Origin: Candidatus Baltobacteraceae bacterium
GTDB taxonomy: Bacteria > Vulcanimicrobiota > Vulcanimicrobiia > Vulcanimicrobiales > Vulcanimicrobiaceae
DNA: 64,000 nt
Reading direction: 5' to 3'
Assembly: GCA_036489885.1 (NCBI GenBank)
Contig: DASXEW010000003.1
Location: forward strand, 1,736,001 to 1,800,000
A program made the translations under genes and the position numbers. Shown here in pieces: positions 16,296-18,249 of this stretch. The notes beneath the pieces were generated by a model. That model saw only the letters and a list, made by a program, of their open reading frames with translations, was not told the DNA's origin and searched no databases. Every line of letters begins with the position of its first letter. Positions within the stretch are counted from its first letter, which is position 1.

Positions 16296-16300
16296 AAGTG

Positions 16301-16327
16301 AAAGACCCTTATTGCTAAGGGTCTTTC
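16301..16327 (-). terminator. Rho-independent terminator of the tRNA pair
   Basis: A perfect 11-bp stem (AAAGACCCTTA / TAAGGGTCTTT) with a four-base loop. It lies six bases downstream of tRNA-Glu on the minus strand and is followed by CACTTTTG. Pyrimidine-rich sequence on the other side may make it act in both directions. Confidence 0.75.
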
Positions 16328-16329
16328 TT

Positions 16330-17052
16330 TCATGGTAGCCCCAACCGGATTCGAACCGGTGTTACCGCCGTGAGAGGGCGACGTCCTAGGCCAGCTAGAC
16401 GATGAGGCCTTGGCTCCCGGGCAGAGACTCGAACTCCAATAACGGCCTTCAGAGGACCGCGTCCTACCATTAGACGACCCGGGAATAAACTGTACTTGCC
16501 TCTATTTCTGCTCGCGAACGTCTCCGTTTGGCTATGACAATTCGGGCAAAGCATTCCGAGATTCTCAAGTCGATTATCGTCCCGAATGCCATTTACATGA
16601 TCGATTTGAATCGATAGCCGCTTACCTCTCCATTCCGTTAGACCGCATTCCTCGCATCTATTCTGCAGGATGCCCGCCTCGAGAAGACGGTTTTTTAAAT
16701 TCGTCCGGCTTTTCGCTTCGGCAGGCACACGGTCTATCGGCCGTTTCACCGGACGCGCGCGGATATCACCACGCACGACCGCTTTGTGCCAGGATCCGGC
16801 AGCAAAGCCGAAGCGGATTCGGCACTCTCGGTATGTGTGCCCTTCGTCGTAATATTGCTGAACAGCAAGCCAATCGTATTGACGTACGCGATTAGCCCAT
16901 GCTCCGTCTTCCGGCAGAACGATGTCGCCGCGCCGGACTGCCTTTCGCCACGAGGCGTAACAGAAGCCGAACAAGCTGCGGCACTCCGTTATCGACTTGC
17001 CAGAGTCAAAGGCGTTTTGGATCGCGGGCCAGTTGAAGCGTTTGATTCGCAT
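16330..17052 (-). CDS. HNH endonuclease with tandem DNA-binding repeats; frame runs through two tRNA genes
   Basis: Starts MRIKRFNWPAIQNAFDSG at ATG 17052. Two about 45-residue repeats follow, each W-A-Q...G...ECR-FGF...SW-KAV-RGDI (FNWPAIQNAFDSGKSITECR and YDWLAVQQYYDEGHTYRECR), likely helix-turn-helix units. The C-terminal HNH domain has CEECGLTEWRGK, IQIDHVNGIRDDNRLENL and GMLCPNCHSQ, with zinc cysteine pairs. The recognisable protein ends near GKYSLFPG at about 16485; there is no stop, and the frame continues through tRNA-Gln and tRNA-Glu to 16330. The family is common in phages and mobile elements, and position beside tRNA genes fits acquisition by transfer. Confidence 0.8.
   Translation of the reverse strand: MRIKRFNWPAIQNAFDSGKSITECRSLFGFCYASWRKAVRRGDIVLPEDGAWANRVRQYDWLAVQQYYDEGHTYRECRIRFGFAAGSWHKAVVRGDIRARPVKRPIDRVPAEAKSRTNLKNRLLEAGILQNRCEECGLTEWRGKRLSIQIDHVNGIRDDNRLENLGMLCPNCHSQTETFASRNRGKYSLFPGRLMVGRGPLKAVIGVRVSAREPRPHRLAGLGRRPLTAVTPVRIRLGLP
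16333..16409 (-). tRNA. tRNA-Glu (anticodon CTC)
   Basis: The 77-base gene folds as a cloverleaf. The acceptor GGCCTCA pairs with TGGGGCT, the anticodon stem TCGCC/GGCGG encloses the loop CTCTCAC (anticodon CTC), and the T arm holds GGTTCGAATCC. CCA is encoded. One base separates it from tRNA-Gln, so they are co-transcribed. Confidence 0.95.
16411..16484 (-). tRNA. tRNA-Gln (anticodon CTG)
   Basis: A 74-base cloverleaf. The acceptor TCCCGGG pairs with CCCGGGA, the anticodon stem CGGTC/GGCCG encloses CTCTGAA (anticodon CTG), and the T loop is GTTCGAGTC. CCA is encoded. It directly follows the HNH endonuclease coding region and is read through by that frame. Confidence 0.95.
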
Positions 17053-17054
17053 AT

Positions 17055-17068
17055 CGAACAAATGTTCG
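17055..17068. promoter_or_regulatory. LexA-like palindrome (CGAAC-N4-GTTCG) at the HNH gene start
   Basis: The 14-bp CGAACAAATGTTCG has two perfect half-sites and lies three bases upstream of the HNH start codon, where the ribosome-binding site would be. It matches the SOS-box form known from Bacillus and actinobacteria. Whether the LexA of this organism uses that site is unknown. Confidence 0.4.
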
Positions 17069-17163
17069 CATGCTTGAGTGCCATCAGTCTTGCACGCTGA
17101 AAGGCTCGCCTCGATGCGCCGGGTATAGTCTCGTCCCTGGCGCTCAACTAAGAGGAGGCTTTT

Positions 17164-18249
17164 ACGCAAGCTATTGTCCTGGTCGGCGGTGAGGGGACGC
17201 GTCTGCGGCCGCTGACGTACGGGACACCGAAGCCGATGATCCCGATCATGGGTGTTCCGTTCCTCGAGTTGATGCTGCGCCGCATCAAAGACGCCGGTAT
17301 CGAGCATGCAATCTTGGCCTCCGGCTATCTGCCCGATGCAATCAGCTCGTATTTCGGCGACGGGTCAAAGCTCGGCTTGCGAATCACCTACGTAGTCGAA
17401 GAAACACCGATGGGCACCGCCGGCGCGATCAAGAACGTCGAGCAACACATCGTCGGGCCTTTCTTCGTCTTCAATGGCGACGTGCTCACTAGTCTCGATT
17501 TGCGCGCGATGATGGCGTTTCACGACAAGCACGGCGGAATAGGTGCGCTGCATTTGATCACCGTCGACGATCCGTCCGCGTTCGGCGCGGTCGTCCACGA
17601 CGGGGACGGACGCATTGCAAAGTTCATCGAGAAGCCGCCCACGGGCACGTCACCTTCGAACGACGTGAACGCCGGGACGTATCTGCTCGAGCGCGAGATC
17701 CTCAACTACATTCCGGCCGGGCGCGCGGTCTCGATCGAGCGCGAAACTTTTCCGGCCGTCATCGACGGCGGCAATGCGCTGTACGCGTACGTCACAGGCG
17801 ACTACTGGATCGATCTTGGGCGCCCCGAGCACTATCTCGACGCGCACCACCACATCTTCGACGGCGCAATGCCGCTCTCGATTCCGTTCGCCAAAGGCGA
17901 GGTCTCGGGTCCCGGCAAGGTGCAGCCGGCCGGTACCGTCACGGCGCCCGCCTTCATCGGCTCGAGCGTCGTCATCGAACCCGGCGCGCACGTCGGTCCA
18001 TTCGTCGTTCTGGGCGACGGCTGCCGCGTCGCGCGCGGCGCGCGGGTCGAAGACTCTCTTCTCTGGGACGGCGTTTCGATTGGTCAGGACGCGGTCGTCG
18101 AGCAATCGATCCTTGCGAGCGGAACACGCGTCGGCGCGCGCGCACACGTGGCCCCGCGCTCGGTAATCGGACATAATGTCGTCATCGACGACGACACCAA
18201 CCTACCGGAAGGTTCGCGTGTCGCGGTCGAGGGTGTGCCTACCGTCTAA
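17164..18249 (+). CDS. Sugar-1-phosphate nucleotidyltransferase with C-terminal left-handed beta-helix
   Basis: About 361 residues when started at ACG 17164. The essential N-terminal loop AIVLVGGEGTRLRPLTYGTP (then KPMIPI) lies upstream of the first ATG (17236), so that ATG would give a dead enzyme. ACG has a perfect AGGAGG five bases before it, and an in-frame stop lies just upstream at 17149. The core has FVFNGDVLTS (Mg site), GTAGAIKN, EKPPTG, VNAGTYLLE and DYWIDLGRPEHYLDAH; the C-terminal third has hexapeptide repeats. It activates a hexose-1-phosphate, perhaps mannose or glucose, for glycan synthesis; the glycosyltransferase follows. Confidence 0.88.
   Translation, partial: TQAIVLVGGEGTRLRPLTYGTPKPMIPIMGVPFLELMLRRIKDAGIEHAILASGYLPDAISSYFGDGSKLGLRITYVVEETPMGTAGAIKNVEQHIVGPFFVFNGDVLTSLDLRAMMAFHDKHGGIGALHLITVDDPSAFGAVVHDGDGRIAKFIEKPPTGTSPSNDVNAGTYLLEREILNYIPAGRAVSIERETFPAVIDGGNALYAYVTGDYWIDLGRPEHYLDAHHHIFDGAMPLSIPFAKGEVSGPGKVQPAGTVTAPAFIGSSVVIEPGAHVGPFVVLGDGCRVARGARVEDSLLWDGVSIGQDAVVEQSILASGTRVGARAHVAPRSVIGHNVVIDDDTNLPEGSRVAVEGVPTV

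Follow-up and report, generated by a model that had tools for sequence, protein, structure and literature searches.

A probable SOS-controlled HNH homing element beside recoded tRNA genes on bacterial chromosomes, a candidate counterpart of yeast WHO elements

The usual view counts tRNA genes with the best-conserved and most vertically inherited sequences of a genome. Several kinds of selfish nuclease gene have been described that sit beside the genes they cut. In yeast, a WHO/HO element that homes into its target exchanges part of that gene for a resistant version each time (Coughlan et al. 2020, PMC7282813). WHO clusters contain intact and decayed copies, some in the opposite orientation, together with displaced fragments of the target, and target divergence is confined to one part of the locus (85% versus 99%; PMC7282813). 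These elements are eukaryotic and encode an intein-related nuclease with a zinc finger; their target, FBA1, is protein-coding, and its cleavage has been shown (PMC7282813). SegB of phages T4 and T6 is a freestanding homing endonuclease that is encoded in a tRNA region and cuts tRNA genes (PMC2988022, PMC13096335), and the Mob endonucleases of T4 are freestanding, intergenic HNH homing genes located beside the gene they cut (PMC2988022). HNH genes also lie between tRNA genes in phage and mycobacterial tRNA arrays (PMC5966550, PMC6582537, PMC6409571). We consider it probable that the HNH gene described here belongs to a homing element under SOS control, which would cut a tRNA gene and put a resistant copy in its place; this would make it a bacterial counterpart of the WHO elements.

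The HNH gene and its open frame in the window

The window, a stretch of 64,000 nucleotides from a 3.48-Mb Eremiobacterota genome, carries an HNH open reading frame on its minus strand (17052..16330, ATG at 17052, 240 aa) with no stop codon before tRNA-Gln(CTG). The frame crosses tRNA-Gln and tRNA-Glu(CTC), placed by ARAGORN at 16411-16484 and 16333-16409 (both on the minus strand), and ends in a TGA at 16332-16330, directly after the encoded CCA. The features of the locus are as follows.

16300..16327, minus strand: hairpin after tRNA-Glu, a probable terminator, with an 11-bp stem and a 6-nt loop (read from the sequence; not in the scan's list)
16330..16497, minus strand: C-terminal extension of 4 codons, then the in-frame tRNA-Gln and tRNA-Glu, to the stop TGA at 16330-16332 (ARAGORN, ORF reading)
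16333..16409, minus strand: tRNA-Glu(CTC), the near-invariant partner that serves as an internal control (ARAGORN, tRNA comparison)
16411..16484, minus strand: tRNA-Gln(CTG), with anticodon and T stems unlike those of the HNH-minus copy from the same genus (ARAGORN, tRNA comparison)
16498..17052, minus strand: conserved part of the HNH endonuclease gene, two HTH-like repeats and a zinc/HNH domain (profiles, alignment, AlphaFold2 model)
16531..16656, minus strand: zinc-binding cysteines and HNH catalytic residues (C-C, DH, N, C-C-H), all conserved (invariant columns of alignment A1)
16771..17034, minus strand: tandem DNA-binding-like repeats, YDW..VQ.YYDEGHTYRECR..FGF..GSW.KAV.RGDI (alignment A1, model)
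17055..17068, no strand assigned: LexA (SOS) box CGAACATTTGTTCG, upstream of the HNH start codon with 2 nt between them (match to boxes of SOS-type genes in the genome)

The identity of the gene, proposed in the earlier note, was confirmed by profile matches to PF01844 (E=3.4e-5, a score above that family's curated cut-off, which places the protein in the HNH superfamily) and to PHROG HNH families (down to 1e-27), and by intact zinc and catalytic residues, with C129, C132, D147, H148, C165, C168 and H169 invariant in alignment A1. The alignment and an AlphaFold2 model (pLDDT 82.6; helices at residues 4-37 and 57-90) give a full-length architecture of two helical HTH-like repeats and the HNH domain, and the tandem repeats are predicted to bind DNA. 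A profile search for related solved structures returned none, and Foldseek against the PDB gave nothing at E<=0.001, with just weak HNH-like matches.

Because family-wide conservation stops near residue 187 (...HSQTETFASRNRGK), roughly four codons short of tRNA-Gln, about 51 codons of the window's reading frame are tRNA-derived; ARAGORN and the ORF reading thereby agree with the note's observation that the frame stays open through both tRNAs for about 50 codons. An open frame across the tRNAs is by itself unremarkable: in the window, two of the three possible frames run through both tRNAs without a stop, and tRNA-Gln has one open frame in 64 of 73 relatives. At the other end of the locus, the divergent nucleotidyltransferase gene (window 17160-17175, plus strand) has an apparent ACG start (aagaggaggcttttACGCAAGCTATTGTC) at the position where relatives have ATG (MQAIVLVGG); apparently the gene either uses a rare start codon or has been misassembled here.

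Placement and stop codons among relatives

A family search of 99 genomes gave matches in 70, and all of the best 30 loci (30/30) lie at the tRNA-Gln(CTG)/tRNA-Glu(CTC) pair or at its surviving part at a contig end, a placement far beyond chance. Most of the HNH genes immediately precede tRNA-Gln in the same orientation; some are on the tRNA-Glu side, convergent or codirectional, and several loci hold tandem or decayed copies. Frameshifted and truncated copies occur alongside empty sites within genera, the sporadic presence and decay by which homing endonucleases are recognized. At the scale of the phylum, strong matches were found in 61 genomes, 60 of which belong to this one Eremiobacterota family; no tRNA was found near the HNH match of the exception (G241). 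What the homologues of other bacteria have in common with it is the HNH domain; they adjoin tRNA-Leu(UAG) in actinobacteria and one Kofleriaceae MAG, and tRNA-Thr in two CPR genomes. Viral homologues in IMG/VR are mostly within tRNA arrays; a neighbouring tRNA is to be expected in such a place, and the weight of the evidence therefore lies with the bacterial chromosomal cases. On an Eremiobacterota contig (L056, G087:C4:1302500-1308700), an HNH relative was also observed within a phage-like array of about 28 tRNA genes.

The locus is syntenic across relatives, with the divergent nucleotidyltransferase gene, the tRNA pair and then a variable downstream side. HNH-minus genomes, including the same-genus G044, have about 100-150 bp between the nucleotidyltransferase gene and the tRNA, and HNH-plus loci have an extra 430-550 bp there, which hold HNH alone on the 5' side of tRNA-Gln. 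The empty site upstream of tRNA-Gln that the earlier note had envisaged is accordingly present in HNH-minus relatives as the same locus minus the insert. Occupied and empty alleles at one syntenic locus are the placement seen with homing endonucleases, with the tRNA as the presumed target. An integrase-type island on the Gln side was considered and rejected, since there is no integrase and the insert is on the wrong (5') side of the tRNA. Separately, the 3' end of tRNA-Glu recurs as short direct repeats a few kb away, like the att sites of integrase-type islands at the tRNA pair, at G025:C23:144789, G094:C8:1422, G092:C360:397, G096:C2:252714 and G074:C30:77437.

The position of the stop codon was compared among the 43 upstream HNH copies whose 3' end is complete. 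It precedes tRNA-Gln in 24, falls within that tRNA in 12, lies in tRNA-Glu or just past it in 6 and is farther on in 1. This spread indicates that read-through is set by the frame and the insertion point, and that, for an HNH element without a stop of its own, it is a by-product. The tRNA promoter, TTGCAA-N18-TAGTAT, is found in 21 of 25 genomes that have no HNH gene upstream and in 29 of 34 spaced insertions, in which the gap between HNH and tRNA-Gln is about 40-80 nt and the promoter overlaps the 3' codons of HNH; the TAG of the promoter's -10 box is itself the HNH stop in 15 of 25 promoter-overlapping spaced copies. In flush insertions, the window included, the gap is 3-28 nt and this promoter is absent beside the tRNA; a search for a tRNA promoter upstream of HNH in the flush insertions found none.

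The copies thus borrow a stop from the target locus. Of the suggestion that the 3' end of the gene was lost on insertion next to the tRNA, the flush insertion without a stop of its own holds, whereas the loss is not quite right, as there was no fixed stop to lose. A simple stop-codon mutation in the window, the counter-explanation named in the note, was also rejected: more than half of the copies do stop before the tRNA, yet no fixed stop exists across the family. The note's other suggestion was that read-through is a built-in limiter, in which the gene is transcribed together with the tRNAs and RNase P processing of the joint transcript yields a nonstop mRNA that tmRNA removes, so that the nuclease is held down. 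Although 19 of the 43 copies lack a stop before tRNA-Gln, as this would predict, it was not borne out by the other 24 or by a stop position that tracks frame and insertion point; LexA is a clearer candidate for repression, and we regard it as highly improbable. A nonstop mRNA handled by tmRNA is possible for read-through copies such as that of the window.

Rewritten tRNA genes, block replacement and SOS boxes

Without HNH, tRNA-Gln is near-identical across distant genera, with one sequence common to G031, G034, G039, G089, G049, G050 and G052. Mean identity to the canonical tRNA-Gln is 0.884 in the 25 genomes without HNH versus 0.767 and 0.759 in those with an upstream HNH gene (14 flush and 34 spaced, respectively). 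The difference is significant overall (MWU p=2.7e-7) and under within-genus permutation of labels in 7 genera (p=0.0002), whereas the control tRNA-Glu, a few bases away, shows no HNH-linked difference (p=0.54). By anticodon-loop pattern, most genomes carry one tRNA-Gln(CTG) each. The rewritten tRNA-Gln keeps a full cloverleaf, with two-sided compensatory change in 16 of 21 pairs and the first three acceptor pairs unchanged, a pattern that would be the expected product of selection changing the DNA while keeping RNA function. The canonical D-arm is kept in 10 of 48 HNH-plus loci; six of these are flush (of fourteen flush), among them the window. Distances of HNH and tRNA-Gln agree weakly (partial Mantel r=0.11, p=0.02). 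A search for a phage source of the recoded tRNA-Gln gave matches of only about 79-84%, which are not informative on origin.

The replacement is most visible where an HNH-plus genome, G030, is set against its HNH-minus relative G031. Identity is 99% on the upstream side, 100% across tRNA-Glu and 92.6% immediately downstream, and falls to 67% in the leader and 80% in tRNA-Gln; the leader and tRNA-Gln of G030 match those of the HNH-plus genomes G035 and G038 at 98-100% despite less related flanks. This mosaic shows that HNH, promoter and tRNA-Gln move as one unit, and it has the form of horizontal spread with flanking sequence; the swap is compatible with either direction. Together with the HNH-linked recoding, it amounts to the replacement of part of the target by a divergent version at insertion, a trait of WHO elements. 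On the Glu side, G067 has an HNH gene beyond which lies a displaced 3' fragment of the canonical tRNA-Glu, and its intact tRNA-Glu has a different 3' half with altered anticodon and T stems. This is the one clear case of a displaced old-target fragment beside the nuclease gene; a search for old tRNA-Gln fragments beside Gln-side HNH copies, of the kind found in WHO clusters, returned none. The same-genus G070 has the G067-type altered tRNA-Glu with no HNH nearby, which implies later loss of HNH.

These data bear on whether the tRNA merely drifted, with HNH playing no part in its rewriting: insertion would disturb tRNA expression and relax constraint, and tRNA-Gln(CTG) may be partly redundant with a UUG-anticodon tRNA. 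Full pairing, an invariant acceptor start, a block-wise swap and the recurrence of identical recoded tRNA-Gln alleles across genera g12 and g31 all speak against such drift, which is already disfavoured and seems to us quite unlikely.

The box at the HNH start codon has counterparts elsewhere in the window genome, where a near-identical CGAACATATGTTCG precedes a DnaE2-like polymerase gene, a gene for an ImuA-like relative of RecA with an ImuB-like ORF behind it, and an operon that includes a methylpurine-DNA glycosylase (MPG); the names ImuB, DnaE2 and LexA are readings of the sequences, and Pfam supports the polymerase, RecA-like and MPG parts. Across 36 N-terminally complete Eremiobacterota copies, the palindrome at the HNH start is CGAAC-N4-GTTCG or TGCCA-N6-TGGCA, with a perfect core in 27 against 0.14 expected; in 33, the full box deviates by one mismatch at most. 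In G010, the second box type precedes lexA itself. The HNH gene therefore appears to share its promoter box with SOS-type genes of the same genome, as members of an SOS regulon do, and its predicted SOS control is well supported by sequence. Two LexA box types coexist in one Eremiobacterota family (L391, L392, L393, L399), and HNH operators occur in both. At two loci of G047 (L028 and L031), the HNH promoter has the textbook SOS form and consists of TTGCAA, a LexA box filling the 17-nt spacer, and TATAAT; the start codon follows about 9 nt on, so the HNH mRNA may be leaderless.

Linkage of a nuclease to a recoded tRNA together with an SOS box would also suit a toxin, induced like colicins, that cuts the tRNA molecule and is carried with the recoded tRNA as antidote. 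We know of no HNH tRNase, and an HNH domain with two HTH-like repeats is the design of a DNA nuclease; insertion beside the target and gene decay suit homing better, so a toxin is very unlikely. Host defence would explain the same tRNA recoding and SOS control by a nuclease that cuts phage or plasmid DNA with a canonical-type tRNA-Gln, the recoded chromosomal tRNA giving self-immunity as in restriction without methylation, and SOS induction would turn the nuclease on in infection. Phages do carry tRNA arrays; however, the many decayed, tandem and two-sided copies, the block transfer and the displaced tRNA-Glu fragment look like repeated invasion, and we consider defence unlikely.

Streptomyces tRNA-Leu(UAG) appears, from sequence comparison, to repeat the pattern of Eremiobacterota tRNA-Gln. 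HNH lies upstream of this gene, beside rdgB, in 60 of 87 resolved genomes, a 60:27 ratio that is not a prevalence because the first 30 loci were chosen by similarity to an HNH-plus locus. The long variable arm, which is typical of tRNA-Leu, is missing in 32 of 60 HNH-plus versus 3 of 27 HNH-minus genomes (Fisher p=1.5e-4), with phylogeny controlled in part only, and type-II tRNA-Leu is the common form in the latter. At a matched rdgB-side identity of 0.80-0.90, the share of near-identical tRNAs is 0.34-0.38 for HNH-minus pairs and 0.01-0.09 for mixed or HNH-plus pairs. An SOS box was looked for at the Streptomyces HNH copies and was absent. Recoded tRNAs without HNH occur in both groups (tRNA-Gln in G032 and G062; tRNA-Leu(UAG) in L328, L342 and L370), which requires later loss of HNH. 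The armless tRNA-Leu(UAG) is found in many Streptomyces (L283-L312, L313-L372, beside rdgB), and in G103 it is the sole tRNA-Leu(UAG) candidate by pattern search.

Proposed homing cycle and comparison with known systems

The genomes compared show the element's place beside the tRNA, the exchange of whole blocks, recoding that preserves the shape of the tRNA, the SOS boxes and the decay of copies. That the nuclease cleaves the tRNA gene, that the recoded copy resists it and that the element homes is what we infer, by the following cycle. The target of the freestanding HNH element would be the adjoining tRNA-Gln(CTG) gene. LexA would repress HNH until DNA damage, a time of high recombination too, when the nuclease would cut the canonical tRNA-Gln gene of an HNH-minus allele in the same cell. 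Repair from the HNH-plus allele, with homology arms supplied by tRNA-Glu and the conserved gene upstream, would copy in HNH, promoter and recoded tRNA-Gln as one unit. The recoded tRNA, or the interrupted junction in flush insertions, would no longer be cut, and translation would be kept going; junction protection, which may apply to flush insertions such as the window's, is proposed because six of the fourteen keep the canonical D-arm. Old copies would decay as new ones arrive, giving tandem arrays, and the missing stop would be a side effect, the coding end at the unit's 3' boundary taking an in-frame stop from the tRNA locus. Homing needs two alleles in one cell, which is uncommon in haploid bacteria.

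More broadly, and with somewhat less assurance, we lean towards the view that such chromosomal "cut-and-replace" selfish elements are widespread on bacterial housekeeping tRNA genes, each with a recoded, functional and uncuttable tRNA, and that through them tRNA gene bodies are rapidly replaced across phyla, the armless Streptomyces tRNA-Leu being one instance. If a nuclease time and again cuts a tRNA gene and puts a recoded copy in its place, the divergence of that gene would reflect selfish turnover rather than the needs of translation. It would also be a natural case, in bacteria, of a homing element that carries its own rescue gene, as yeast WHO elements and engineered cut-and-rescue drives do. 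The family may offer sequence-specific HNH nucleases with tRNA-gene targets, and, as the Streptomyces case concerns culturable bacteria, it is testable at once.

None of the parts is new in kind: HNH nucleases, homing genes close to phage tRNAs and WHO elements that carry resistant target copies have all been described. Our search of the literature, chiefly open-licence papers, found no description of HNH with a rewritten tRNA on bacterial chromosomes; within that scope, the combination of these parts there, with whole tRNA genes rewritten and SOS control, appears to be new. Phage homologues of the window's HNH domain sit in the tRNA arrays mentioned above, whose HNH genes have been described as markers of mobile tRNA arrays (PMC5966550, PMC6582537, PMC6409571); unlike these, the window family inserts at a single housekeeping tRNA pair, and that tRNA is rewritten. 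Like SegB, which is tRNA-associated across phages, the element is a freestanding gene in a tRNA region, whereas SegB has a GIY-YIG fold and a phage genome, and the excerpts of PMC2988022 and PMC13096335 report no recoded resistant tRNA. Like the Mob genes, it is a freestanding HNH gene beside its presumed target, although Mob endonucleases belong to a phage and have protein-coding targets, and the excerpt of PMC2988022 does not describe protection by whole-target recoding.

Membership in the WHO family was rejected, as the protein belongs to the HNH family and not to that of intein-derived nucleases with a zinc finger; the element is therefore an analogue, with no sequence relation implied. 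It differs from WHO in being HNH, bacterial, presumably directed at a tRNA that is recoded over its whole gene body, apparently SOS-controlled and, here, known from sequence. What it shares with WHO is an endonuclease gene beside the presumed target, replacement by a version that is probably resistant, clusters of intact and decayed copies, some of them oppositely oriented, and local divergence, and the arrangement in G067 is that described for the yeast elements (PMC7282813).
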